This document shows positions 2,510 to 52,650 of a stretch of 64,000 nucleotides of DNA, in pieces. Both the position numbers and the translations under genes were made by a program. The DNA comes from an uncultured Clostridia bacterium. Its GTDB lineage: Bacteria > Bacillota > Clostridia > Peptostreptococcales > Anaerovoracaceae. The notes below the pieces were generated by a model. It saw nothing but the letters and a program-made list of their open reading frames with translations, was not told the origin of the DNA and did no database searches. Location of the stretch: positions 1-64,000 of the forward strand of contig CAKQQT010000012.1 in the NCBI GenBank assembly GCA_934271235.1. Direction: 5' to 3'. Numbering within the stretch: position 1 is the stretch's first letter; each line of letters opens with the position of its first letter.

Positions 2510-3877
2510 ATGCACCTACATGAATTTTTCATGGCGGCTGTGGAGAATGCCGTAATCCTGCCGGTTGCGGTATTGATGCTGGCGCCTGTCAAAAACCATA
2601 TCGCATTCCAAAAACAAAATTTTTATCCTGCTATACTGCTGACACTCGTGCTTACCGTACTGGCATTGGCCGCGCTGGAAACGTACCGGAACCGGTTCAG
2701 TGCTTTAGCTGTATGGGTAGTTCTGCTGATCATGCTGCTGTGCTGCTTCCGCATGGTCTCTCTGCAGCGGCATAAGCTCATGTATGTGTTTGCCTCGGCC
2801 GCGGCACTCGTCTCTTTCACCCATTTGGGAAAGGTTCTGCTCGAGGCGTGGCTGTTTCCGGAAAAGGACAGCTTCCTGCCGACGACTTGGGGACTTGTGT
2901 TTCAATGGGCGCTGCTTTTGCCGATGACAGCGGCGGCGTGGTTTTTTTTACATAAGAATTTTGTCTGGATCGCGGAACACTCCGAGAGTAAAAAAATCTG
3001 GAGGTACGCGTGGATCCCATCGGCGGCAATCGCGGTCTGCAATACGCTGTTGGTGCCGACGAGCTACGAGGTGCTGCATTCCCGCGAGGTCATGATCACA
3101 CTGATAGCCGCGGCGCTCCTGCGCCTGCTCTTGTTTGTGCTCTTGCAGCTGATCTTTTATCAGGTGCTGCGCGCGGCATTGGAAAAAATCGAAATCAACA
3201 AAAAGAATCTCGTGCTGCAGCTGCAGGCTCAGCAGTACAGGACGCTGCGGGCTTATTTTGACCGCACGCGGCAGATGCGGCATGACTACAAGCATGTCGT
3301 CCGCACTGTGCAGGAGCTTCGCAAGAGAGGTGACTATGACGGGATCGGCCGGTTTCTGGAAGAATATGAAGCCGTCTCGGCTTTTGGGGAGGAACAGTTT
3401 TCCTTTTGCGCGCAAGCGTCGATCAACGCTGTACTGAGCCACTATATCAATCTGGCGCGGCAACGGCAGATTCGGACAAAATGCGTGGTCAGCCTGCCGG
3501 AAGCGCTGACCGTCAGCGAGGTGGACCTGTCGCTGATCCTCGGCAATCTTTTGGAAAACGCGATCAACGGCTGCCTGACCGTACCTGCGTCGGAACGGCA
3601 CCTTGAGCTTTCGATTGATGTTACAGAAGACGCGGAGCTGTACCTTGTGATCCGCAATTCCTTCGATGGGATTGTTCAAAGGAGAGAGAATCGTTTTGTC
3701 CGCGCGCATGGCGGAGAAGAGGCTGAACGCGGTATCGGGATTTTTTCGGTGAGGGAAACCGCGGCGAAATATGACGGCATGACGGAGTTTGACGCGGAGG
3801 AAAAAGAATTCTGCGCCTGCGTGATGCTGCGGACGCCAAAGAACGAAGCCGATGACGCTCAGCGTCCGGACCTATGA
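2510..3877 (+). CDS. GHKL-type sensor histidine kinase (AgrC-like)
   Basis: The 455-residue protein has about six N-terminal membrane helices (residues 5-240), a coiled linker, then a dimerisation segment with the probable phosphorylated His in MRHDYKH (about residue 258) and a C-terminal GHKL ATPase (SLILGNLLENAIN as N box, then RGIGIFSVRETAAKY as G box). It would autophosphorylate and pass phosphate to the LytTR regulator encoded just upstream. The last 11 residues (from NEADDAQ) are encoded by the start of a roughly 120-bp repeated element, so the original C-terminus was probably altered when the repeat arrived. This is inferred from the identical DNA 121 bp further on. Confidence 0.88.
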   Translation: MHLHEFFMAAVENAVILPVAVLMLAPVKNHIAFQKQNFYPAILLTLVLTVLALAALETYRNRFSALAVWVVLLIMLLCCFRMVSLQRHKLMYVFASAAALVSFTHLGKVLLEAWLFPEKDSFLPTTWGLVFQWALLLPMTAAAWFFLHKNFVWIAEHSESKKIWRYAWIPSAAIAVCNTLLVPTSYEVLHSREVMITLIAAALLRLLLFVLLQLIFYQVLRAALEKIEINKKNLVLQLQAQQYRTLRAYFDRTRQMRHDYKHVVRTVQELRKRGDYDGIGRFLEEYEAVSAFGEEQFSFCAQASINAVLSHYINLARQRQIRTKCVVSLPEALTVSEVDLSLILGNLLENAINGCLTVPASERHLELSIDVTEDAELYLVIRNSFDGIVQRRENRFVRAHGGEEAERGIGIFSVRETAAKYDGMTEFDAEEKEFCACVMLRTPKNEADDAQRPDL

Positions 3878-4003
3878 CCTTGGCGCTGCGAGTGGCGAGC
3901 GGGACGCGCGGGCAGAGCAGACGCAAGTCAGGTGTCCGAGCGAAGGAAGCGGCGAGCCGAAAGACGAAGCCGATGACGCTCAGCGTCCGGACCTATGATG
4001 AAA
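3840..4003 (+). repeat. 120-bp dispersed repeat, locus 1 (one full and one partial unit)
   Basis: The 33-bp stretch beginning GAAGCCGATGACGCTCAGC occurs at 3845-3877 and again at 3966-3998, period 121 bp. The full unit (about 3884-4003) contains the family core GGCAGAGCAGACGCAAG-CAGGTG and TCCGAGCGAAGG that also appears at 17.8 kb and 51.0-51.3 kb. GTCCG near the middle can pair with CGGAC at the 3' end. The unit ends 22 bp before the start codon of the next gene, on the same strand. The first partial unit supplies the C-terminus and stop codon of the kinase. Confidence 0.8.
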
Positions 4004-4025
4004 TACGAAAGGAGATGTGAGAGAT

Positions 4026-4403
4026 ATGGGAGTTGCTGTACTTACTTCAAAAATCAATGATTCAACCGTGATATGCCGGAAGCTGCTTGAGGAGACACTG
4101 AAACAGCGAAGATATTTGGAATATGTAGAGTTCGCGGATACGGTCGGCCTTTTGCAGTCACTCGATTGCTGCCGTTACGGCACAGTCATTTTGCGCGATG
4201 ATATTTCGAACATGCTGGAAACCGCGCAGAAGATCAGAAGCAAGCATCCCAAGATACGCATTGTGTTTCTGACAGACCATGACGAGCTCCACGCGCGGGA
4301 CTGCGGCATGCCCGCTGATTTTTGCGCGCCGGCCTATCCGGACGCGAAACAGATTACGCGGCTGATTGAAAATCTTTTTGTGAAAGAAAGCGCAGCCAAC
4401 TAA
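4026..4403 (+). CDS. Small receiver-like protein, unassigned
   Basis: The 125-residue protein probably starts at ATG 4026. GTG 4017 is too close to the GGAG at 4011. The pattern resembles a response-regulator receiver fold: VAVLTSKIND, then YGTVILRDDISNML in place of the usual phospho-acceptor strand, then KIRIVFLTDHDE and a proline-containing FCAPAYPD near the usual KP position. The acidic cluster at the N-terminus is missing, so normal phosphorylation is doubtful and no output domain follows. It lies downstream of the LytTR pair with the repeat between them. It may modulate that system (inference). Otherwise it is a hypothetical protein. Confidence 0.55.
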   Translation: MGVAVLTSKINDSTVICRKLLEETLKQRRYLEYVEFADTVGLLQSLDCCRYGTVILRDDISNMLETAQKIRSKHPKIRIVFLTDHDELHARDCGMPADFCAPAYPDAKQITRLIENLFVKESAAN

Positions 4404-4494: not shown

Positions 4495-5299
4495 GTATGA
4501 CAGGCATGCCGTTCGTCTGTGGTGAAAGGCCACAAGGGGCGCAGCTGCCAGCGAACCCGACAGCAACTTGCAAGGTTCACATCGTGAGGTGCGGGCGAGA
4601 AGAAGCAACAGCGAAATCGTAGCTTGACGGACAGAAACTTGGCGGACAGAAACCTAATATGAAGGCTTGCATAGCGGATAAGTGGGCAAAGCGCCATGAA
4701 GTCCAAAAGGCAATCGTAACCTATGCAGGTAGATTAGCAGGCAGGCGAGGAAAGATGAGCGGCTTATCCCGTGAGACCTCATAGGCAGGTGTACCTGTAG
4801 TAACAACGAACTGTGAGGAGTACCCTCGCTGCGCTGGGGCAGGCCCTCAGCAGAAGCCATAGCAGCGAGGAAGTCTCTGTAATGGAGACCGAGCGAAGGG
4901 CTGAACAATTCAAGTCAAATGGACTTGTGAAAATCCGCATCCATACCCGACGAGGAAGATCGTAGCAAAGACGGAAGGAAGGCAAGACCCCACCAAGATT
5001 CCATCAAAAGATTCGAGAGGAAGCTGAAGCAGCTGAAAAAGCGAAGCTGGTCCGTGACAATGGACGAACGAATCAAAAGATTGAATCAAGTTATCCGTGG
5101 GTGGATCAATTACGAATGGGAAGTATGAAAGAAAATCTCAAGCGGCCGCAAGAACTACAGGATTGCGTCTCATGAGCAAAGAAATCCTCGCGAAACGAGG
5201 ACTTCTTTGCTGTTTGGATTATTATTTGAATTGAACCGCCGTGTGCCGAACGGCACGCGCGGTGGTGTGAGAGGGGCTACAAGTTAGCCCCTGCTCGAT
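4495..5299 (+). mobile_element. Decayed group IIC intron with deleted maturase
   Basis: About 805 bp. The 5' end GTATGACAGGCATGCC resembles the GUGYG start and first helices of group IIC ribozymes such as the Oceanobacillus intron. The 3' part is clearer: domain V reads GAACCGCCGTGTGCCGAACG then GCACGCGCGGTGGTGTGAGAGG (5233-5274), followed by a domain VI hairpin GGCTAC-AAGT-TAGCC and a CTCGAT end. Between lies only the tail of the reverse transcriptase/maturase reading frame, so most of the protein (normally 400 residues or more) is lost. Position directly after a terminator stem agrees with class C target choice. It can no longer move by itself. Splicing would need a maturase supplied from elsewhere. 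Confidence 0.85.
5006..5234 (+). pseudogene. ltrA: Remnant of group II intron maturase C-terminus
   Basis: From 5006 one frame encodes a maturase (GIIM) domain piece including KRSWSVTMDERIKRLNQVI and RGWINY, then runs off frame into a stop at 5126. The expected continuation (MGSMKENL) is in the next frame. A third stretch at 5172-5234 (EILAKRGLLCCLDYYLN then stop) matches the usual maturase end. Thus there are at least two frameshifts and the reverse-transcriptase domain is missing. The homology is from recalled family patterns. Confidence 0.8.
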
Positions 5300-5335
5300 C
5301 GTTTTTTGTCTGTTTCCGATCGTCTGTCTGTACGA

Positions 5336-6778
5336 TCACTTTCCCGTCACATGGCTGATAAAAGCGGAAGCATTTTCTGCACCGATATGGAACGTAAAGG
5401 ACTTGCCGGAGTTCATCTTCACGAACAGATATCCGTTGTCGCTGACGCCGAAATTGATGACGGAGTCAGTCGGATTGCTGGTCGATTTGAACGTGACATG
5501 GACATTGCCGCTTTCGTACGCGGAATGTTTTGCCAGCGGAGCACTTCCGTTTGCAAAGGCATAGGAGGAAACCAGTTCCTGAATGCTGCTGACGTTAAAC
5601 CTGTGATAAGAGGAATAACCGATCTGCGCGCCTTTACAGAATACAGCTTTGGCAAACGATGCGGAGGAATTGAGCCCTGCATCGGACAAGAATTGTCCCA
5701 ACGTTTCCGGTACATAGTCGTCGCTCATGTAGAGCAGCGTCTGGCTGAAACCGTCGACATCGACTGCGATCAGGAAGTCGGAAGAAACATTCTTGACTTT
5801 CCGGACTTTCGCGCTCAGTGTCGCATGGTTCGTCGTTGAGGTCTCCGGGATCTCGAGGGAGATCGTTTTGATCTCGGATGCGGTCGCCGCTGTGGTCGTT
5901 GCTTTTTCAACCACATAGTTGCTGCCGGAAACCGTGAGCGTGGAAACCGAGCTTTCTGCGAGGATCTCGCGGTTAAAAGCAATATCGCCTGTTCCCGGAG
6001 CGCCCGGCGTCACCTTGTCATCGCCGACGACATAATTGCCATTGCCGTCATCCGGGGCCGGAGGAGCAACGGTACCCGAATTGTTTCCGGAGTTGTTGTC
6101 CTTGCCGGTATTGCCGTTGGAAGAATCGGAATCATTGTCTGCCGGAACAGGCGGCGGATTGTCGCCTTTGAAAGAATCGGAACCGTTCTGTCCATTGTTT
6201 GTGCTTGCCGGATCTTTGACATTCTGAGAACCGCCGTTTCCGGAATCGTTTCCGTCCGTATCCTGCGGCTGCTCGTCATTCGTATGATTACCGAAAAGAT
6301 TACTGAGAAAACCGCCCTTGTTTTCGTCGGCGGGATCTTGCCCGTCGCCGGAACCGTTCTCTGCATCGATCAGATCATCGGCATCCGGGTCGGTCACTGC
6401 GTTCGGGTTCTGATCGTTCGGGGAGGTGACAACCGTCGGGTTGTCGATCGCCGTATGGATGAAATCCCAGGCGCGGTCTCCGGATGCAGAGCCGAAAACA
6501 GTAAAGGTTGACAGCAAAACGATAACGCCGGCAACTGCTGCCGTGCTGTAATACCATATTGATTTAGTTGTATGCTTCTTAGCTTTTGCTGCGGGTCTTT
6601 GCGAAACGGTCAGATCTTCGCATGCTCTGCGCATCTTCACATCGTCAAAGGACACCACATGTTCTGATGTTTCCGGGGAAGCATCCAATGCTGCAATCTT
6701 CGCCAGCAAGTCGGTGACCACCTCGTCAGACGGTACCATTTGTTCTTTCATGCTGCGAATCCTATCGTCAGTCATCAT
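5336..6778 (-). CDS. Single-pass membrane anti-sigma factor
   Basis: 480 residues. A cytoplasmic N-terminal part (1-80) carries a segment able to bind sigma. One membrane helix follows at about 88-108 (IWYYSTAAVAGVIVLLST). A long extracytoplasmic linker of Asn, Gly, Asp, Pro and Ser spans about 110-265, and a folded C-terminal domain of roughly 200 residues has no family I recognise. The start ATG overlaps the stop of the upstream ECF sigma gene by 4 bp (ATGA), the classic sigma/anti-sigma arrangement. Function as the membrane inhibitor of that sigma is inferred from this coupling and topology. The C-terminal domain is presumably the envelope sensor. Confidence 0.78.
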   Translation of the reverse strand: MMTDDRIRSMKEQMVPSDEVVTDLLAKIAALDASPETSEHVVSFDDVKMRRACEDLTVSQRPAAKAKKHTTKSIWYYSTAAVAGVIVLLSTFTVFGSASGDRAWDFIHTAIDNPTVVTSPNDQNPNAVTDPDADDLIDAENGSGDGQDPADENKGGFLSNLFGNHTNDEQPQDTDGNDSGNGGSQNVKDPASTNNGQNGSDSFKGDNPPPVPADNDSDSSNGNTGKDNNSGNNSGTVAPPAPDDGNGNYVVGDDKVTPGAPGTGDIAFNREILAESSVSTLTVSGSNYVVEKATTTAATASEIKTISLEIPETSTTNHATLSAKVRKVKNVSSDFLIAVDVDGFSQTLLYMSDDYVPETLGQFLSDAGLNSSASFAKAVFCKGAQIGYSSYHRFNVSSIQELVSSYAFANGSAPLAKHSAYESGNVHVTFKSTSNPTDSVINFGVSDNGYLFVKMNSGKSFTFHIGAENASAFISHVTGK

Positions 6779-7483: not shown

Positions 7484-7840
7484 CATTTTCGGATGTATAA
7501 TGTACTGCTTTTCGGCGGGTTTTCAAAATTTTGCACGCGGCAGGGGGCATGCGGATGAAAGGATTTGACAGATAGAGAAAGAATCTCCTGTCACTCCGGA
7601 ATTTCGTTTGTCGAAGGTTGTCGAACCTTGTCAAACCTTGTTGAACCTTATCAAAAATGCTCGATGCGTGTCGCAGTGCATGCGTGTCAGAAAACTTTTT
7701 TAATTCGATTTAATTTGAAGAAAATGTAAAAAATGAGCAAAAATGTGCCGGACCAAGTGAAAATCTCGCTTTAGGCCGTGCAGATTTTTCAAAAAGGACG
7801 TAAAAGCAGTACATTCTACATACTTAGAAAATTCTGGAAA
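7484..7840. mobile_element. MITE-like non-coding element, copy A
   Basis: Perfect 14-bp terminal inverted repeats AATGTACTGCTTTT (7499-7512) and AAAAGCAGTACATT (7802-7815) bound a 317-bp unit without a gene. The inverted similarity continues inward for about 40 bp (AAAATTTTGCACG against CGTGCAGATTTTT) and outward (GCATTTTCGGATGTA against TACATACTTAGAAAATTCTGG). A diverged copy in the same orientation lies at 44239-44550. The middle of copy A has a 10-bp tandem repeat (TTGTCGAACC type, about 7609-7658). Size and termini fit a miniature inverted-repeat element; no clear target duplication is seen. Confidence 0.75.
7609..7658 (+). repeat. 10-bp tandem repeat inside MITE copy A
   Basis: Successive units read TGTCGAAGGT, TGTCGAACCT, TGTCAAACCT, TGTTGAACCT and TATCAAAAAT. 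Copy B at about 44363-44382 keeps only about two units (TTGTCGAATC, TTGTTGAAAA), so the array length differs between copies. Confidence 0.65.
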
Positions 7841-7923
7841 TGCTCAACGCTTCGGGGGTCGATATGCAGAAATGCACGGCGCTTCGGGGATCAAAATGCG
7901 GAAGCGCTGCTGCGGCATTTCGG

Positions 7924-17451: not shown

Positions 17452-17732
17452 GATGCATAAGACTGCTATCTTTTCGGCATTTTCTTCAAAAAAAAGCATG
17501 ACTTACCAAACGAAAAGCAGTTGTTCGCTTGCTGGGAAGATGGAAATTGTTTTGCGAAACGAAAAAGTAAGAATATTTTTATTACAAAAAACAAAAATAG
17601 GAAAAATGTGGAAACTGAGAACCAAACCCCGGGAAGAAAAAAGCAAAAAACAAGCTGCTCAACAGACGAACCATGCTTTTTTTTGCCGAAAATCGTAATT
17701 TAGCACCAGTTCTATGCATCATACTTTTTTCT
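17452..17732. mobile_element. Second MITE-like inverted-repeat element
   Basis: An AT-rich 280-bp unit bounded by TGATGCATA (left, about 17452) and TATGCATCA (right, about 17724). Inside these, TTTTCGGCA on the left matches TGCCGAAAA on the right, and AAAAAAAAGCATG (about 17494) matches CATGCTTTTTTTT (about 17670). The arms are imperfect over 45-60 bp with small insertions. No gene lies inside. Base composition is far lower in GC than the neighbours. The right end adjoins the promoter of the rlmD leader. Only one copy is in this window. Confidence 0.6.
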
Positions 17733-17739
17733 GCCGAAA

Positions 17740-17769
17740 CACTGGCGATCTTACCCACAATTTGATACA
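17740..17769 (+). promoter_or_regulatory. Promoter of the rlmD leader (extended -10)
   Basis: TGATACAAT forms an extended -10, with TGGCGA 17 bp upstream of TACAAT. The same arrangement (TGGCAT, 17 bp, TACAAT) precedes the tandem repeat upstream of rarA at about 51014-51042. The shared promoter-plus-repeat block suggests the two leaders have a common origin. Confidence 0.6.
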
Positions 17770-17885
17770 ATGTTCTTGGCACTGCGATTGCCAAGGCAAA
17801 GCCGCAGGCAGAGCAGATGCAAGACAGGTGCCCGAGCGAAGGCGAGCGGCAGCGAAGTTTGAATGGCGAAACAGACCAGATGCAA
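17770..17885 (+). repeat. 120-bp dispersed repeat, locus 2 (rlmD leader)
   Basis: Starts CTTGGCACTGCGATTGCCAAG, a 7-bp hairpin with a 7-nt loop, and continues with the family core AGGCAGAGCAGATGCAAGAC then AGGTGCCCGAGCGAAGGCGA. The 3' third diverges from the other copies. It lies between a promoter and the rlmD start codon, on the same strand. Confidence 0.78.
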
Positions 17886-17906
17886 ATAAAAAAACGGAGA
17901 AGCAAA

Positions 17907-19760
17907 ATGGAAAAAGGACAAATTGTAACATTGACCATAGAAGATATGAGCACCGAGGGGCAAGGGATCGGCAAACTGTACGAAGCCGGCGCTGCCGGCG
18001 CGAGCGCATCGTCCGATGCAGCCGGAGACAAGGTAGCGAGCGGCGGCCGGGAAGGCACGGCTGATACAGCAGGCAAGGCCGGCGGCCGGGAAGGCACGGC
18101 TGATACAGCAGGCAAGGCCGGCGCGGGGGAAGACGCAGCTGATACAGCGGGTGCGGCAGGTGCGGGGAAAGACGCAGCTGATACAGCGAGTACGGCCGGC
18201 GTGGGGAAAGGCGCGGCCGCAACCGCAGATGCGCGCGGCTTTGCGGTCTTTGTCAAGGATACGGTCGTCGGCGACCGCGTAAAGGTGGAACTGACCAAGG
18301 TGAAAAAACATTACGCATTCGGACGGGTGATCGAAGTGCTCGAAGCATCGCCGGAGCGGATCGAAGCGTTCTGCCCCTATCAGGACCGGTGCGGCGGGTG
18401 CGCCTACGGATCACTGCATTACGACGCGCAGCTTGCGCTCAAGGAAAAACAGGTACGCGATAAACTGATCCGTTTGGGAGGGCTTACGGATCCGGTGATC
18501 ATGCCGATCCTCGGTATGGAAGAAGAATCTTTCCGCTACCGGAGCAAAGCGGTGATGCCGGTCAGCACCGGCGGCCTGCTGACACAAAAAGGCGGGATCG
18601 TAAAACCGGTGCATGAACCGCGTATCGGTTTTTACCGCGCAAAAACCCACGAGGTCGTGGACTGCGAAGATTGCTGGCTGCAATCGGAACCGGCCATGGC
18701 AGCAGCGAACGCTCTGCGGCGTTTCATGGAAGAAGACCATATCACATCCTATGATCCGCGCTGGGAAAAAGGCCTGATGCGGCATCTGATCGTGCGGACT
18801 GCGGCCGGGACCGGTGAAGTCATGGTGATCCTGGTGATCAACGGTAAAGCGATCCCGAACGCGCAGAAACTGGTGCAGATGCTGGATGAAGCGATCTATC
18901 AGCTTCCGGTGTATGAAGATGGACCGTTGGCCGGAGTAGAATGGAATCTGGAGAGCGTGGTGCTGAACATCAACAAATCCAAGACTCTGGATGGACCGAT
19001 TCTGGGCGAAGAGTGCGTCACCATTGCCGGCAAACCGACAATCACGGAAGAAGTCGGCGGCCTGAAGTTTGAGATCTCACCGCTGTCGTTCTATCAGGTA
19101 AACCGGGAACAAATGGTGCGGCTTTATGAAAAAGCGTTGGAATATGCGGACCTGAAAGGCGGGGAAACGGTGCTCGACTTGTACTGCGGCGTGGGAACGA
19201 TCGGCCTCTTTGCGGCAGCCGAGATGGACCGCAGAGCAAAGGAGGAAAATTTCGGAGCACAAGCTTTGCGCAGCAGTCCGGTGGGCCGTGTGATCGGCAT
19301 CGAATCAGTCAAAGGTGCAGCCCTCGATGCGAACCGCAACGCAGTCATCAATGGTATCGTCAATGCGCGATACGTCTGCGGCAAGGCAGAGGAAGAACTG
19401 CCGAAGATGGTACGCACCAAAGCGCAGGAGGAAGCTGCCGCGCGCGAAGCGGCAAGGAAATTCGGAGAAGATGCGGCCAAGCGGGAAATCCTCAAAGATG
19501 AGGCACTGCGCGTCGCACACGCGGATGTTGCGATCCTCGATCCGCCGCGCGCAGGCTGCGAGCAGCCGCTTCTGCAGGCTGTCGTACAGGCCGCCCCGGA
19601 CCGCATCGTTTATGTTTCCTGTGATCCAGCAACTCTGGCACGCGACATCAAATGGCTCGGCGAACACGGCTATAAATTCCGGGAAGCCACCCCATGCGAC
19701 ATGTTCCCGTGGACGAGCCATGTTGAGACGGTCTGTTTGCTGTCAAGAAAAGATAAATAA
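17907..19760 (+). CDS. rlmD: 23S rRNA (uracil-5-)-methyltransferase RlmD-like, with repeat insertion in TRAM domain
   Basis: ATG 17907 behind ACGGAGA gives 617 residues. A TRAM domain begins at once (MEKGQIVTLTIEDMSTEGQG) but is split after GIGKLYE by about 80 residues of Ala/Gly/Asp/Thr repeats; the TRAM strand resumes at GFAVFVKDTVVGDRVKVEL. Iron-sulfur cysteines lie in CPYQDRCGGC, SAM site in LDLYCGVGTIGLF, and catalytic Cys in VSCDPATLARD. It methylates uridine in 23S rRNA (or tRNA; paralogues are hard to separate). Normal length is about 450-480, so the insertion and a further Ala/Glu-rich stretch (KAQEEAAAREAARKF) explain the excess. The gene sits behind one of the dispersed repeats. 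Confidence 0.88.
   Translation: MEKGQIVTLTIEDMSTEGQGIGKLYEAGAAGASASSDAAGDKVASGGREGTADTAGKAGGREGTADTAGKAGAGEDAADTAGAAGAGKDAADTASTAGVGKGAAATADARGFAVFVKDTVVGDRVKVELTKVKKHYAFGRVIEVLEASPERIEAFCPYQDRCGGCAYGSLHYDAQLALKEKQVRDKLIRLGGLTDPVIMPILGMEEESFRYRSKAVMPVSTGGLLTQKGGIVKPVHEPRIGFYRAKTHEVVDCEDCWLQSEPAMAAANALRRFMEEDHITSYDPRWEKGLMRHLIVRTAAGTGEVMVILVINGKAIPNAQKLVQMLDEAIYQLPVYEDGPLAGVEWNLESVVLNINKSKTLDGPILGEECVTIAGKPTITEEVGGLKFEISPLSFYQVNREQMVRLYEKALEYADLKGGETVLDLYCGVGTIGLFAAAEMDRRAKEENFGAQALRSSPVGRVIGIESVKGAALDANRNAVINGIVNARYVCGKAEEELPKMVRTKAQEEAAAREAARKFGEDAAKREILKDEALRVAHADVAILDPPRAGCEQPLLQAVVQAAPDRIVYVSCDPATLARDIKWLGEHGYKFREATPCDMFPWTSHVETVCLLSRKDK
18000..18236 (+). repeat. 39-bp tandem repeats inside rlmD
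   Basis: The insertion in the TRAM domain consists of 13-residue (39-bp) units: two nearly identical GGREGTADTAGKA units, then GAGEDAADTAGAA, GAGKDAADTASTA and a decayed last unit. All keep frame. The graded decay suggests recent expansion of the first two units. Confidence 0.85.
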
Positions 19761-26678: not shown

Positions 26679-26863
26679 AACCCCGGACAGAAGTACTGGG
26701 GATCAGAAAAAGCAAAGATAAAAACGCAACGTATGTATGGAGCACCGGGCAGCGGCAAAGCCGTTAGGTTTCCAAAGGTCCTGCATACCAGAGCCGGTAG
26801 GTAGCCCGGCCGTCCTGCTTGTCAGGGTAAGTAACCTGCCCCTCCGGGTTGTCCGTTTTTTGC
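26679..26863 (+). ncRNA. yjdF riboswitch with competing terminator
   Basis: The leader of the yjdF gene is highly paired. Aptamer features: GTATG (26731-26735) with CATAC (26784-26788), CGGC-AAA-GCCG (about 26752-26763), and CCGGGC (26745-26750) with GCCCGG (26804-26809). The same GCCCGG can instead pair with CCGGGTT (about 26843-26850) to form a stem followed by TCCGTTTTTT (terminator). Ligand binding to the aptamer would therefore favour read-through. The yjdF RNA class is known to bind many azaaromatic compounds; identification here rests on position before a clear yjdF gene and on the overall fold, not on an alignment. Confidence 0.75.
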
Positions 26864-26892
26864 GCATTGCAATGAAAAAAGGAGGGATTGTC

Positions 26893-27309
26893 ATGTGCAA
26901 AGTAAACGGCAGGCTGATGGTATATTTCGAAGAACCGTTCTGGATCGGCGTATTTGAGAAGATCGACGGCGGTTGCCTTTTCGCGGCAAAAGTTACGTTC
27001 GGAACAGAACCGCGAGAACGGGAACTTTATGAATGGATCTTGAAGCACTATGAAGAGCTGCAGTTCAGTCCCGCTGTGACGGCTTCCGCAAAGAACGATG
27101 TCAAAAATCCAAAACGGAGACAGCGGGAAGCCAAAAAGCAGATGCAGGATACCGGGATCGGTACGAAAGCGCAGCAGGCTTTAAAAATGCAGCAGGAGCA
27201 GAACAAACAAGAACGCAAAGTCAAAAGCCGCCAGCAGAAACTGGAAGAAGCAAAGCGTAGGTTTGCACTGAAACAGCAAAAGAAAAAAGACCGACACCGA
27301 GGGCACTGA
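26893..27309 (+). CDS. yjdF: YjdF family protein (DUF2992)
   Basis: ATG 26893 behind AAAGGAGGG gives 138 residues. The N-terminal half, with MVYFEEPFWIGVFEKIDGG, matches the YjdF fold. The C-terminal half is a long basic coiled region with NPKRRQREAKKQ, GTKAQQALKMQQEQNK and a KKKDRHRGH end, all hallmarks of DUF2992. Biochemical function is unknown in the family. It lies behind its own riboswitch and 43 bp ahead of a nitroreductase gene, suggesting a shared response to azaaromatic toxins. Confidence 0.92.
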   Translation: MCKVNGRLMVYFEEPFWIGVFEKIDGGCLFAAKVTFGTEPRERELYEWILKHYEELQFSPAVTASAKNDVKNPKRRQREAKKQMQDTGIGTKAQQALKMQQEQNKQERKVKSRQQKLEEAKRRFALKQQKKKDRHRGH

Positions 27310-32173: not shown

Positions 32174-34040
32174 CCATCAAAACCCAAATCAGGAAAGTGC
32201 ATACCGCCCGCCGAGAAGAAGAGGTCCGCGTGGGCCGATGGGCGGCCGTGGCATGGTGCCCGGCGAAAAGCCGAAGAATCTGAAAAAATCTCTGGCAGCG
32301 TTGATACGTTATATGGGAAAATATAAATTTGGTATTTTTGCCGTTATGATCTTTGCAGCATGTTCTACCGTCTTCAGTGTAGTCGGGCCGAAGATCCTCG
32401 GAAATGCCACGACAGAACTGTACAACGGGCTGATCGCGAAGATCCAGGGCATCGGGGCGATCGACTTCGGAAAGATCGGTCAGATCCTGCTGTTTGTCCT
32501 GGGGCTGTATCTGTGCAGCGCACTGCTCAGCTTTCTGCAGGGCTGGATCATGACCGGTATTACCCAAAAAGTATGTTATCGCCTGCGAAAAGAGATCTCC
32601 CAGAAGATCAACCGCATGCCGATGAAATATTTTGAGAGCAGAACCTATGGCGAAGTGCTTTCACGGATCACAAACGATGTGGACACGCTGGGACAGGGAC
32701 TGAACCAGAGTATTACCACGATCATCACAGCGACGGCAACGATGATCGGAGTTCTGATCATGATGCTGAGCATTTCTCCGCTGATGACGCTGATCGCGAT
32801 TATCATCCTGCCGATCTCCATGGGGCTGATCGGACTGGTGACGAAAAAGTCGCAGAAGTTTTTCCGCGCACAGCAGGAATATCTGGGGCATATCAACGGC
32901 CAGGTGGAGGAAGTTTACGGCGGCCATATGGTCATCAAGGCGTTCAACCGGGAAAAGGATACCATCGAGGAGTTTGAAAAGACGAATAACATCCTTTACG
33001 ATTCTGCGTGGAAATCGCAGTTCTTGTCCGGCATGATACATCCGATCATGATGTTTGTCGGCAACCTGGGTTATGCCTGTGTGGCGCTTTCCGGCGGCTT
33101 GCTGGCCATTCGCGGCGTGATCACGGTCGGCGATATCCAGGCGTTTATCCAGTATGTCAAGAACTTTACGCAGCCGATCCAGCAGATCGCCCAGGTGATC
33201 AATCTGGTGCAGTCTATGTCGGCGGCTTCGGAGCGGGTGTTTGAGTTCCTGGATGAAGAGGAAGAGCAGCAGCTTCTGGAACATCCGGCGGACATTACGA
33301 AGATTACCGGCGAGGTAACTTTCGCTCATGTACGTTTTGGTTATGATCCGGAGCAGGTCATCATCAAGGATTTCAGTGCACATGTGAAACCGGGACAGAA
33401 GATCGCCATTGTCGGACCGACCGGTGCGGGCAAGACGACCATGGTCAAGCTTTTGATGCGGTTTTATGACGTGAACAGCGGTCAGATCCTTCTGGATGAT
33501 ACGAATATCAAGGACTTTAACCGCCGGGATCTGCGAGATGCTTTCGGCATGGTGCTGCAGGATACCTGGTTGTTCAAGGGCAGCATTATGGAAAATATCC
33601 GTTATGGCAGACTGGATGCAACGGATGAAGAGGTCATTGCGGCAGCGAAAGCGGCAAGGGCGGATCATTTCATCAAGACGCTGCCCGGCGGCTACCGGAT
33701 GGAGCTGAATGAGGATGCCAGCAATGTATCGCAGGGGCAGAAGCAGCTTTTGACGATCGCCAGAGCGATCTTAGCGGATAACAAGATCTTGATCCTTGAT
33801 GAGGCGACATCTTCGGTCGATACCAGAACGGAAGTGGAGATCCAGAAGGCGATGGATAATCTGATGCAGGGCAGGACCAGCTTTATCATTGCTCATCGGC
33901 TTTCGACGATCCGGAATGCGGACTTGATCCTGGTCATGAAAGACGGCGACATCATCGAGCAAGGAAACCACGAACAGCTCCTTGCAGCGGGCGGTTTCTA
34001 CGCGAATCTGTATAATTCTCAGTTTGAAGAGATCGAGTAA
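32163..34040 (+). CDS. Second heterodimeric ABC exporter, catalytic half
   Basis: 625 residues. A disordered N-terminal stretch rich in Pro, Arg and Gly (RPPRRRGPRGPMGGRGM region) precedes six membrane helices; the ATPase has GPTGAGKTT, VSQGQKQLL in place of the classical signature, ILILDEATSSVD with catalytic Glu, and IAHRLST. It is paralogous to 24779-26644. The operon ends at the terminator that is duplicated around the following ATPase gene. Confidence 0.92.
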   Translation: MNNNHQNPNQESAYRPPRRRGPRGPMGGRGMVPGEKPKNLKKSLAALIRYMGKYKFGIFAVMIFAACSTVFSVVGPKILGNATTELYNGLIAKIQGIGAIDFGKIGQILLFVLGLYLCSALLSFLQGWIMTGITQKVCYRLRKEISQKINRMPMKYFESRTYGEVLSRITNDVDTLGQGLNQSITTIITATATMIGVLIMMLSISPLMTLIAIIILPISMGLIGLVTKKSQKFFRAQQEYLGHINGQVEEVYGGHMVIKAFNREKDTIEEFEKTNNILYDSAWKSQFLSGMIHPIMMFVGNLGYACVALSGGLLAIRGVITVGDIQAFIQYVKNFTQPIQQIAQVINLVQSMSAASERVFEFLDEEEEQQLLEHPADITKITGEVTFAHVRFGYDPEQVIIKDFSAHVKPGQKIAIVGPTGAGKTTMVKLLMRFYDVNSGQILLDDTNIKDFNRRDLRDAFGMVLQDTWLFKGSIMENIRYGRLDATDEEVIAAAKAARADHFIKTLPGGYRMELNEDASNVSQGQKQLLTIARAILADNKILILDEATSSVDTRTEVEIQKAMDNLMQGRTSFIIAHRLSTIRNADLILVMKDGDIIEQGNHEQLLAAGGFYANLYNSQFEEIE

Positions 34041-34091
34041 AAAAGACCTCGCAGCAGGCACCGGCAAAGTGCTTCGGCTGCGAGGTTTTTT
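34039..34091 (+). terminator. Terminator of the ABC operon, first copy of a 53-bp direct repeat
   Basis: AAAAAAGACCTCGCAGC... forms a stem ACCTCGCAGC / GCTGCGAGGT with loop AGGCACCGGCAAAGTGCTTCG, then TTTTTT. It is identical over 53 bp to 35572-35624. Confidence 0.9.
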
Positions 34092-34108
34092 GCTGGTACA
34101 AATTTTCC

Positions 34109-35571: not shown

Positions 35572-35624
35572 AAAAAAGACCTCGCAGCAGGCACCGGCAA
35601 AGTGCTTCGGCTGCGAGGTTTTTT
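35572..35624 (+). terminator. Second identical copy of the 53-bp terminator
   Basis: All 53 bases equal 34039-34091, including six leading A and six trailing T. It terminates the ATPase gene and, read on the other strand, may serve the converging AGCS pseudogene. One copy is presumably the original terminator of the ABC operon. Confidence 0.9.
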
Positions 35625-35631
35625 ACTGCGG

Positions 35632-44238: not shown

Positions 44239-44550
44239 CATTTTCCGGATGAATAATGTACTGCTTTTCGGCGGCTTTTCGAAAATTTGCACGCGGCAGG
44301 AAAATTAAAATAATAAAAGTTTACAAATAAAGAAATGATTTCCTACCAATGAGGCGAGCCTATTGTCGAATCTTGTTGAAAAAGCTCGATCCATGTCACC
44401 GCGAACATGCAGCGGAAGCTTCTCAGCCTGTCTTTCTTTGAAAAAATGTAAAAAAGTACGAAAATGTGTCGGAGCAAGCGAAAATCCCGTGCAGATTTTA
44501 CAAAAAGGGCATATAAGCAGTACAATATGCATACTTAGAAAATTCTGGAA
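44239..44550. mobile_element. MITE-like non-coding element, copy B
   Basis: Left end AATGTACTGCTTTT (44255-44268) is identical to copy A; right end ATAAGCAGTACAAT (44513-44526) is one step diverged. TIR-to-TIR length is 272 bp against 317 in copy A. Shared internal text includes TTTGCACGCGGCAGG, GTGCAGATTTTACAAAAAGG and, outside the right repeat, CATACTTAGAAAATTCTGGA. It lies in the long gap between ohyA and the MGMT-family gene. Confidence 0.75.
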
Positions 44551-44639
44551 GCGCGCAGCTAGTCAGAAATCGGAGTCAAAAATTAAGAAGCGTGCGGCGC
44601 TTCGGGGAAGCACTCAGGGATCCGAGGGTCGGAACGAGG

Positions 44640-50309: not shown

Positions 50310-50897
50310 CTATGCTTCGGGAGCCTCCGGCTGCGCGTCTGCGGCTTCCTTTGCTTTCTGGATCTTTTTGAGCTGGCGCGTGAAGAAGATATCCGATACG
50401 AAGTCGGAAAGGCCGCTGACGAAAAGTCCGAGACCGAGCATGAAGAACAGCAGCTTCGCGGTGGAGAACGGGTTCATCATGACCAGAACGCCGAAAAGCG
50501 CGATGATAACGGAAACGATCAGAACGCCTTTTGAGGTCGGATAACCGAATTTTCGGAAGTTGATGACATTCTGGATCCCTTCCAGACCTTTATAGGTGAT
50601 CATGAAGCCGAGGATGAACGGGATCGCGGCGATGATCATGGTCCCCTTGAAGCAGAGGAAAACGCCGAGGACGACAAGGCTGACGCCGATCGCGAAGCCG
50701 TTGGTATCGTTCAGGATACGGCTTTCCACTTTTGTGATGCTGTAGCCGATCAGCTTGAGCACGCCGAGCGCGATCACGCACAGGGCGAGGATCGTACAGA
50801 TCACGTTTTCGATTTTTTGCGGCCAGAGCATCAGAGCCAGTCCGAAGAGAATATAAATAAAGGAAGTAACGAATTTCATAATACCGGATTCTTTCAT
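50310..50897 (-). CDS. DUF308-family membrane protein (HdeD-like)
   Basis: ATG 50897 (minus strand) behind AGGAGACAAAG gives 195 residues; the frame is open far upstream only because it crosses the repeat array. About six membrane helices in three hairpins (SFIYILFGLALMLWP; ICTILALCVIALGVLKLIGY; FFMLGLGLFVSGLSDFVSDI) match DUF308/HdeD. Role unknown, envelope or acid stress in relatives. The C-terminus is Lys/Ala/Glu rich. Confidence 0.82.
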   Translation of the reverse strand: MKESGIMKFVTSFIYILFGLALMLWPQKIENVICTILALCVIALGVLKLIGYSITKVESRILNDTNGFAIGVSLVVLGVFLCFKGTMIIAAIPFILGFMITYKGLEGIQNVINFRKFGYPTSKGVLIVSVIIALFGVLVMMNPFSTAKLLFFMLGLGLFVSGLSDFVSDIFFTRQLKKIQKAKEAADAQPEAPEA

Positions 50898-51013
50898 TTC
50901 TTTGTCTCCTTTTTTGGTATGATTCACTGACACCATTATACTACACCTGCTCAAAAAAGCAATGCCTGACCGACAGGATTCCCTGCGCGTGCCAAAATTC
51001 CCCCCGAGGCACT

Positions 51014-51042
51014 GGCATCTTGTCACAAAATGTGATACAATG
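51014..51042 (+). promoter_or_regulatory. Promoter of the rarA leader
   Basis: TGGCAT, 17-bp spacer, TACAAT with extended -10 TGATACAAT, the same layout as at 17740-17769. Transcription would start at the first repeat unit. Confidence 0.6.
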
Positions 51043-51280
51043 TCCTTGGCACTGCGATTGCCGAGTTGAAAACGACGGCAGAGCAGATGCAAGACAGGTG
51101 TCCGAGTGAAGGCGACTGCGGAGCGAGAGCGACAGCAGAGCCGCTCAGCGACCGGACCAATGTCCTTGGCACTGCGATTGCCGAGTTGAAAACGACGGCA
51201 GAGCAGATGCAAGACAGGTGTCCGAGCGAAGGCGACTGCGGAGCGAGAGCGACAGCAGAGCCGCTCAGCGACCGGACGAA
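51041..51280 (+). repeat. 120-bp dispersed repeat, locus 3 (two tandem units before rarA)
   Basis: Units 51041-51160 and 51161-51280 are identical except for one base in the core (GAGTGAAGG versus GAGCGAAGG) and the final bases. Each begins TGTCCTTGGCACTGCGATTG (hairpin CTTGGCA/TGCCGAG), has the core GCAGAGCAGATGCAAGACAG and a GTCCGAGCG that can pair with CGCT...CGGAC at its 3' end. The array ends 41 bp before the rarA start codon. Confidence 0.9.
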
Positions 51281-51321
51281 TATCCTAAACGTAAATAAAA
51301 CAAAGGAAACAGGAAGAAACC

Positions 51322-52650
51322 ATGGAACAGACCACCATGTTCGATAATCGGACCGAGCAGCCGCTGGCATCGCGGCTCCGGCCGGAGTCGCTGGAAGAAT
51401 TTGCAGGTCAGAAGCATCTTTTGGGTGAGGGAAAGGTGCTGCGCCGGCTGATCGAAAGCGACCATATTACGTCGATGATCTTCTGGGGACCGCCGGGGGT
51501 CGGCAAGACCACGCTGGCAAGGATCATCGCCAACCGCACAAAAGCGACTTTCATTGATTTTTCAGCTGTGACCAGCGGGATCAAGGAGATCAAGACCGTC
51601 ATGCAGCGCGCGGAGAACAACCGCCGTTTCGGGGAAAAAACGATCGTCTTTGTGGACGAGATCCATCGCTTTAACAAGGCGCAGCAGGACGCCTTTTTGC
51701 CGTTTGTGGAAAAAGGAAGCATCATCCTCATCGGCGCGACGACCGAAAATCCGTCGTTTGAAGTCAACGGCGCGCTGCTGTCCCGCTGTAAGGTCTTTGT
51801 CCTGCAGGGGCTTAAGACGGAAGATCTGACTGCGCTTTTGAACCGGGCGCTGTCCGATCCGCGCGGATTCGGAGAACAGAAGATCCGTATGGAGGGCGAC
51901 GCGCTGGAAATGATCGCCAACTTTGCCAACGGCGATGCGCGCATGGCGCTTTCCACCTTGGAGATGGCGGTACTGAACGGCGATATCGTACAGGAGGACG
52001 GGCAGGAAGTAACGATTGTAACGCCGGAAACGCTGGAACAGTGTACTTCCAAAAAATCGCTGCTGTATGATAAAAAAGGAGAAGAACATTACAATCTGAT
52101 CTCGGCGCTGCATAAGTCGATGCGTAATTCCGACCCGGATGCGGCCGTCTATTGGCTGGCGCGCATGCTGGAAGCGGGCGAGGACCCGCTGTATGTGGCA
52201 CGCCGCGTGGTGCGGTTTGCCAGCGAGGATATCGGGCTGGCAGATCCGCGCGCGCTGGAGATTGCCGTGGCGGCCTATCAGGCCTGCCACTTTATCGGGA
52301 TGCCGGAGTGCTCGGTCAATCTGACACAGGCCGTGACCTACATGGCGATGGTGCCGAAATCGAACGCCATGGAAGTGGCTTATCTGGAAGCGCGCCGGGA
52401 CGCGATCTCGCAGCTTGCAGAGCCGGTGCCGCTGGTCATCCGCAACGCGCCGACTAAGCTGATGAAAGAACTGAATTACGGAAAGGGCTATCAATACGCG
52501 CACGATACCGAAGAGAAGCTGACGAATATGCAGTGCCTGCCGGACTCCCTCGCGGACCGGGAATACTATCATCCGACGGATCAGGGGCTGGAGGCGCGCT
52601 TCAAAGAACGACTCGCGCAGATCAAAGACTGGAAGCGCAGGCACAGATAA
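51322..52650 (+). CDS. rarA: Replication-associated recombination protein A (MgsA/RarA ATPase)
   Basis: 442 residues. The N-terminal RPESLEEFAGQKHLLGEG leads to Walker A GPPGVGKTT, Walker B FVDEIHRFNKAQQDA and sensor 1 GATTENPSFEVN. The C-terminal MgsA_C oligomerisation domain (AVYWLARMLEAGEDPLYVAR; YQACHFIGMPECSVNLTQAV) is complete. It is a clamp-loader-like ATPase acting at stalled forks with SSB. A monocistronic gene behind the tandem repeat leader. Confidence 0.95.
   Translation: MEQTTMFDNRTEQPLASRLRPESLEEFAGQKHLLGEGKVLRRLIESDHITSMIFWGPPGVGKTTLARIIANRTKATFIDFSAVTSGIKEIKTVMQRAENNRRFGEKTIVFVDEIHRFNKAQQDAFLPFVEKGSIILIGATTENPSFEVNGALLSRCKVFVLQGLKTEDLTALLNRALSDPRGFGEQKIRMEGDALEMIANFANGDARMALSTLEMAVLNGDIVQEDGQEVTIVTPETLEQCTSKKSLLYDKKGEEHYNLISALHKSMRNSDPDAAVYWLARMLEAGEDPLYVARRVVRFASEDIGLADPRALEIAVAAYQACHFIGMPECSVNLTQAVTYMAMVPKSNAMEVAYLEARRDAISQLAEPVPLVIRNAPTKLMKELNYGKGYQYAHDTEEKLTNMQCLPDSLADREYYHPTDQGLEARFKERLAQIKDWKRRHR

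Follow-up and report, generated by a model that had tools for sequence, protein, structure and literature searches.

A candidate small interspersed repeat with a probable conserved RNA hairpin upstream of three unrelated genes in a Clostridia gut bacterium

Why should nearly the same stretch of about 120 bp precede three genes that have no function in common? In the window analysed here, namely the whole 64,000-nucleotide stretch at the start of contig CAKQQT010000012.1, a preliminary description had counted five whole or partial units at three loci, all on the plus strand and before start codons, and repeat search, core scan and nhmmer search bear this out. In particular, the direct-repeat search returned a family (D1) of four 120-nt copies starting at 3872, 17768, 51038 and 51158, and an nhmmer profile of these four recovers all of them together with a weak match at 3826-3871, the next match having an E-value of only 3.8. 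The 24-nt core, taken at three or fewer mismatches, has four matches in the window, all on the plus strand, and none in 100 shuffles, in keeping with the near-constancy ascribed to it, and the unit spacing of 120-121 bp is likewise as claimed.

At the first locus, ahead of a receiver-like gene, the full unit (3872-3998; nhmmer 3872-3992, E 1.9e-29) scores 85 bits with our covariance model, of which it is itself a training sequence. It is preceded by a partial copy corresponding to the 3' part of the unit, at about 3826-3877 (nhmmer 3826-3871, E 0.0034), in which 3835-3877 is 93% identical to 3956-3998 at a spacing of 121 bp (direct-repeat family D8). At rlmD only the 5' part of the unit is present (17768-17853; the nhmmer match runs from 17768 to 17877, E 8.9e-27). 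By our reading of the alignment, homology of this copy to the rarA copy ends near 17853, and a different module follows. Ahead of rarA there are two 120-nt units in tandem, the first at 51038-51157 (direct-repeat search, nhmmer and Tandem Repeats Finder) and the second at 51158-51277 (pairwise comparison and Tandem Repeats Finder), which are identical at 119 of 120 positions and are followed by some 9 nt of a third copy, up to 51286; Tandem Repeats Finder reports the array as 51038-51286 with 2.1 copies. In other words, each locus carries one or two units, two being the case in the rarA tandem, and the copies are dispersed over three loci within 64 kb.

The genes downstream of the units are, as judged by family models, functionally unrelated. 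The receiver-like gene (4026-4403, plus strand) is only weakly identified, its Response_reg match (E 7.7e-05, 23.3 bits) lying below the curated cut-off of 30.2; rlmD (17907-19760, plus strand) encodes a 23S rRNA (uracil1939-C5)-methyltransferase (TIGR00479, 349.2 bits, cut-off 183.55), and rarA (51322-52650, plus strand) encodes the AAA+ replication-associated recombination protein (MgsA_C, E 7.6e-68). The unit at the receiver locus forms the spacer between two same-strand genes, lacks the promoter DNA common to rarA and rlmD, and likely sits within an operon. Namely, a GHKL histidine kinase gene (2510-3877, plus strand; HATPase_c_5) ends inside the partial copy, and in translation 3835-3877 encodes the C-terminal tail of the kinase, PKNEADDAQRPDL, and its stop codon. 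The kinase relatives P0131 and P0132, the two close ones among the 10 related kinases reported, also end in DAQRPDL, but their tails have other linkers (PKNEGEDDDAQRPDL and PKNEDAQRPDL), which suggests that the tail is older than the divergence of these kinases. Both receiver-locus copies also contain the self-complementary words GACGCTCAGCGTC (with one mismatch) and GTCCGGAC.

The surroundings of the loci, and the window at large, hold other elements as well. Just 3' of the receiver-like gene there is a match to group II intron D1-D4-3 (4578-4763, 84.8 bits), and the one ORF checked near it (5306-5839, plus strand) has no NCBIfam match. The interior of rlmD contains four 39-bp tandem repeats (18041-18196) that encode a low-complexity insert ahead of the TRAM domain. 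A second, apparently unrelated repeat pair, at 7486-7846 and 44242-44557, looks like a MITE-type element, with inverted ends and differing middles, the outer 59 and 71 nt being 92% and 86% alike. An azaaromatic (yjdF) riboswitch match (26708-26872, 57.4 bits) overlaps the start of an ORF at 26737-27309, and a 57-bp sequence, 98% identical between 34039-34095 and 35572-35628 and terminator-like by eye, stands at the ends of two neighbouring ORFs.

What lies immediately upstream of the unit? Both at rarA and at rlmD the unit begins at a -10-like TACAAT, and about 40 bp ending in TGATACAAT are homologous between the promoter-bearing stretch at rarA (51002-51041, plus strand) and a stretch of promoter-like layout at rlmD (17732-17771, plus strand; CTGGCG...TGATACAAT). 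The score of this comparison is 19, while the best control scores are 6 among 518 on the plus strand and 8 among 637 on the minus strand; the portion above the -10 alone scores 10, against 5 for the best of 518 controls. What is more, the window contains two occurrences of the arrangement CTGGC-N15-22-TACAAT and no others, one at each of these loci, whereas 0.19 are expected and 2 of 100 shuffles reach two. The two loci do share the promoter layout that had been proposed for them, but only rarA passes the promoter-consensus scan (CTGGCA-18-TACAAT, with TG before the second hexamer), the rlmD stretch falling below the threshold, with no match in 17600-18000. We retain the reading as an element all the same, since it rests on homology and not on the consensus scan. 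That said, the related suggestion of a repeat lying behind promoters as a structured leader fits rlmD and rarA but not the receiver locus, where the shared upstream DNA is absent and the scan of 3700-4150 gives no promoter-like match. The tandem duplication at rarA left the promoter-bearing upstream DNA uncopied.

The 5' half of the unit can be drawn as a 56-nt hairpin, which we call structure II: TGT.CTTG.CACTGC..TTGCC...(3-bp tip)...GGCAG.GCAG.TGCAAGACA. It was taken from the folds of lowest energy computed for rlmD and for the two rarA units, its outer three pairs being added from RNAalifold, and it occupies, always on the plus strand, 3875-3930 at the receiver locus (where it is placed by covariation, its own fold having z -0.16), 17771-17826 at rlmD (z -2.97), 51041-51096 in rarA unit 1 (z -4.32) and 51161-51216 in unit 2, which is the same in sequence as unit 1 across this stretch. 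Four of its pairs change on both sides. Namely, the two tip pairs (columns 29-35 and 30-34) are U-A and U-A at rarA, G-C and C-G at rlmD, while the receiver locus has C-G and G-C. In the receiver copy, moreover, the A-U of pair 14-51 is replaced by G-C, and the U-A of pair 6-57, one of those added by RNAalifold, by A-U. That these four pairs covary among the three independent loci is supported by controls of unequal strength. In its 19-pair version, structure II has 94.7% of cells paired, which is reached by 0 of 500 shuffles, while slid versions of the hairpin are 22-50% paired; its covariation score of 0.228, against 0.065, is reached by 1 of 500 shuffles, its three two-sided pairs are matched by 21 of 500, and its further pair types by 27 of 500, though such alignment shuffles are not probabilities where the sequences are related. 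When the observed substitutions are instead placed at random, the four compensated pairs between rarA and the receiver locus (13 substitutions) have p 0.001 and the two between rarA and rlmD have p 0.024. The base of all this is three independent DNA copies, two of which supplied the folds that revealed structure II, while all three entered into the finding of pair 6-57.

On this footing, an RNA copy of the repeat probably folds into a conserved hairpin, although not the one first singled out. The preliminary description had seen compensating changes in a hairpin CTTGGCA/TGCCAAG and in a pairing GTCCG...CGGAC. The former (columns 8-14 with 22-28 of alignment A4) was rejected as a conserved fold, having one-sided changes only and, in the receiver-locus copy, one cell that does not pair; the latter is invariant where present and lacks its 3' side at rlmD, and as it does not vary among the copies that have it, it is possible as a pairing yet receives no compensatory support. 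RNAalifold proposes pairs in the 3' half as well, one of which (64-100) has a two-sided change, and we do not claim these as conserved structure.

Structure II is not equally well formed everywhere. Of its 22 pairs, 3 are broken in the receiver copy and 1 at rlmD; the receiver copy is no more stable than its shuffles (z +0.84 for the whole unit, -0.16 for the hairpin), and the probabilities computed at rlmD for the four pairs of columns 8-11 are 0.10-0.20. In the equilibrium fold of the rarA tandem, the two copies pair with each other, leaving each its own hairpin with a probability of 0.01-0.03; separate rarA hairpins would have to form during transcription. Pair 21-44 is U-G at rarA and rlmD, and by its codons in the protein P0130 discussed below, and is broken at the receiver locus. 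The unpaired positions G12, A20, A45 and A50 are invariant in the four DNA copies; by our reading, the codons of P0130 copy 1 require all four, those of P0126/P0127 require three and allow A45, and G12 is replaced by T in P0130 copy 3.

Relatives of the unit were found in the form of read-through proteins. Searching the joined read-through peptide against 5.8 billion proteins gave 24 candidates and 5 reported matches (E 2.2e-9 to 6.4e-4), all from ENA, and these five metagenome proteins carry unit-related sequence. P0130 runs in sense through three units, of which the third is incomplete; codons compatible with TACAATG precede its first unit, and codons compatible with GGACCAATG, like the rarA junctions, precede the later two, with a shift of frame between units. 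The remaining four, P0126-P0129, read the unit in antisense, and in P0126/P0127 as in P0130 the codons are merely compatible with TACAAT. In P0127 the unit alternates with a module, R2 (GTKAQGLFCHSNFAYTRFHGTEP in antisense), which is also present at rlmD and in P0128 and P0129. Namely, the fragment that replaces the usual 3' part at rlmD (17854-17877, plus strand) matches the back-translated R2 peptide of P0127: the GLFCHSNFAYT part of that peptide matches nowhere in the window as well as at the end of the rlmD copy, which scores 33 of a possible 47, the runner-up scoring 22. R2 (GTKAQGLFCHSNFVCTRFHGTEP) recurs in P0127 and P0128; as both proteins also share the flank MKDIELFKEVIL, it may be a separate dispersed repeat.

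Back-translation also permits structure II to be looked for in these proteins, where "possible" pairs are weak evidence wherever codons are degenerate. In P0130 copy 1, 21 of 22 pairs are possible, 11 of them forced, while sliding by 1 to 3 columns leaves 10 to 13 of 22 (13 of 21 at +3). P0126/P0127 allow 20 of 22 (14 to 17 when slid) and P0128 allows 19 of 22 (15 to 17 when slid), three of its pairs being unable to form. P0130 copy 2, in which only the outer stem is covered, allows 13 of 13, against 7 to 11 of 10 to 13 in slid positions, and copy 3 allows 9 of 10, against 4 to 8 of 8 to 13. P0129 was excluded from the count, as its 5' part aligns only with a frame change. Taken together, the read-through relatives are mostly compatible with structure II.

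Beyond these proteins, copies are scarce. Among species-genome contigs, the 20-nt core is found in two stretches, one in a Reyranella MAG and one in a Dehalococcoidia MAG, where by a rough estimate about two are expected by chance, and neither stretch has a match to the hairpin model at E 10 or better. With the core occurring only twice in this collection and without the hairpin, the family would be narrow or fast-diverging, or its species unrepresented. Viral contigs gave no match for two core patterns and one 3' pattern; 32 stretches met a pattern in the comparison with P0128 and none was confirmed; one match to the R2 pattern and two to the 5' pattern were judged unrelated by eye; and the 16-nt core found 77 stretches, in which the hairpin model has three matches at E 1 or below, the best at 0.12, which we attribute to chance. 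Neither the rarA unit nor P0127 has a match in phages or plasmids, and the receiver and rlmD units have in plasmids only short weak matches (E 0.09 or worse) from unrelated genera. Among plasmid-collection sequences, the closest rarA with a name belongs to a Subdoligranulum variabile record (76.0%), which suggests a Clostridia, Oscillospiraceae-like host. This rarA is too distant to offer an empty site, its upstream region contains no unit, and across the record (OY725880.1) the model finds nothing at E 1 or better. In Rfam 15 no unit has a match at the gathering threshold, the best low-threshold matches (E 1.4, 0.12 and 0.054) all being well below the gathering scores of their families, which agrees with the initial remark that no named RNA family resembles the unit.

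Is the repeat then a mobile one? Its dispersal, module exchange and tandem duplication suggest so. As regards the usual marks of transposition, the unit ends have only GTCC/GGAC in common as terminal inverted repeats, and when the three loci were searched for inverted repeats as short as 8 nt, no pair joined the ends of any unit. The rarA array is preceded by AATGTCC and followed by AATATCC, an imperfect correspondence, and no empty site, clear target duplication or link to a transposase was seen.

Several simpler accounts have to be weighed against this. The similarity might reflect ancestral paralogous promoters and chance likeness, with no element at all: GC-rich words of the GAGCGA type are common in genomes of this sort. 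That said, the absence of the core from all 100 shuffles, the unrelatedness of the downstream genes and the related sequence in five metagenome proteins leave this account with hardly any credibility. Only slightly more credible, and still very improbable, is that the unit is a translated upstream peptide or a protein-coding repeat. The AEQMQDRCPSEG frame, which had been noted as readable through the repeat, is indeed open through both rarA units and at rlmD, and DAQRPDL terminates the kinase of the window as well as P0131 and P0132. However, over the first 63 columns the rarA and receiver copies differ at 6 first, 7 second and 1 third codon positions, opposite to what coding constraint would give, and for rarA and rlmD these counts are 4, 2 and 3; the ATG of the frame is ACG in the receiver copy, a change that keeps a hairpin pair, and P0130 changes frame between units. 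With no excess of third-position substitutions, an upstream peptide from this frame was rejected. The unit could also be passive repeat DNA spread by recombination or replication slippage, its hairpins reflecting DNA copying and having no role as RNA. The near-identical tandem copies are what slippage would produce, the helix takes in bases upstream of the expected +1, and both strands fold, the minus-strand hairpins having z -3.48, -1.99 and -0.79; at the receiver locus the minus strand has the better z-score for whole unit and hairpin alike. Against this, the plus strand folds better at rarA and rlmD, and the U-G of pair 21-44 would be A-C on the opposite strand, although that pair is broken at the receiver locus. 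On these grounds we find passive DNA a doubtful explanation.

At the other end of the range, the unit may be a true cis-regulatory leader RNA in which a protein or ligand binds structure II and thereby governs a group of genes, rarA and rlmD among them. The covarying stem with its nearly invariant unpaired bases is what one would expect of it, as is the placement on the plus strand before start codons at all three loci, with promoter-like DNA at two. On the other hand, the target genes are unrelated, Rfam offers no match, and G12 is not kept throughout. What is more, scans of 50700-51400, 17600-18000 and 3700-4150 gave no terminator-like site on the plus strand (the minus strand has two weak ones at the receiver locus), and the predicted accessibility of the start region is unchanged whether the unit is present or left out in silico (0.62/0.63, 0.74/0.76 and 0.49/0.49 at the three loci). 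A riboswitch or attenuator working through a terminator or through masking of the start is accordingly not supported, which leaves mRNA protection or processing, factor binding or no effect at all, and we hold a leader of the regulatory kind to be unlikely. A more elaborate proposal, in which promoter and 5'-terminal RNA travel as one mobile cassette, a trans factor binds the bulges, the number of tandem units sets the dose and insertion assembles a post-transcriptional regulon, appears to us a rather long shot.

Our preferred reading, which we consider reasonably probable, is that of a lineage-restricted small interspersed repeat, of the BOX or Correia kind, in a Clostridia gut bacterium, carrying a structured leader. 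It is built on the dispersal over three loci, the upstream homology at two of them, the tandem duplication, the exchange of modules and the compensated pairing. The core of such a repeat would be the 56-nt hairpin, followed by exchangeable 3' modules, and at some sites the repeat would have arrived with a promoter or landed directly at one. Transcription from the upstream promoter would then begin near the foot of the first hairpin and make the repeat the 5' leader of the following gene. Judged by the -10-like hexamer, transcription at rarA may start at about 51048, within the base of the first hairpin. Such an RNA would lack the outermost four to seven base pairs of the full helix, which the second copy of a tandem, or a copy internal to an operon, would retain. 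At rarA, recombination would later have doubled the leader unit, the promoter not being included. We infer that the RNA may act mainly at the level of the mRNA, through protection of the 5' end or processing at the hairpin, and not by switching translation or termination.

How does this compare with known repeats? Genera such as Neisseria and Streptococcus are described as having small interspersed repeats that carry promoters and RNA structure (PMC3049150, PMC10969869, PMC2229807). BOX elements of Streptococcus consist of modules boxA, boxB and boxC, one of which varies in number, form a predicted stem-loop if transcribed, may sit in 5' leaders and have ORFs on both strands (PMC3049150). By description, not by sequence, the present repeat stands beside them: it is small, modular and interspersed, with exchangeable modules (R2 at rlmD), one or two units per locus, a stem-loop, a 5' leader position and both strands open, whereas its multiplied module begins at the -10-like hexamer and equivalents of flanking boxA and boxC are undefined. 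Correia/NEMIS elements of Neisseria measure about 105-155 bp, often lie 5' of genes, may carry sigma-70-like promoters, form an RNA stem-loop, may fuse to reading frames and are classed as MITEs (PMC2229807, PMC10969869). Length range, position, stem-loop and reading-frame fusion are alike, and promoter carriage may be, but our repeat has no demonstrable terminal inverted repeat or target duplication, and its promoter-like DNA borders the tandem unit on the upstream side without being part of it. ERIC and Rickettsia palindromic elements, as summarised in PMC2229807, are structured, about 105-146 bp long and sometimes in frame into genes, for which one may compare the kinase tail; their stem-loop joins the 5' end with the 3' end, however, whereas the hairpin here is confined to the 5' half. 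With no terminal inverted repeats, mobility unproven and the BOX likeness descriptive, the repeat cannot be filed under BOX or Correia. Among the literature matches listed, we recognised no published repeat as this unit, which does not by itself prove absence, and it looks like a new family among the small scattered bacterial repeats already known.

A family from gut Clostridia that combines shared promoter-like DNA with a compensated hairpin would offer a tractable case in which to ask if repeats of this kind live as parasites or serve as regulatory leaders that can be carried from gene to gene. In particular, the reading predicts that 5' ends would fall at the foot of the hairpin and that the number of units would differ among strains, both of which can be checked in RNA-seq data and metagenomes.
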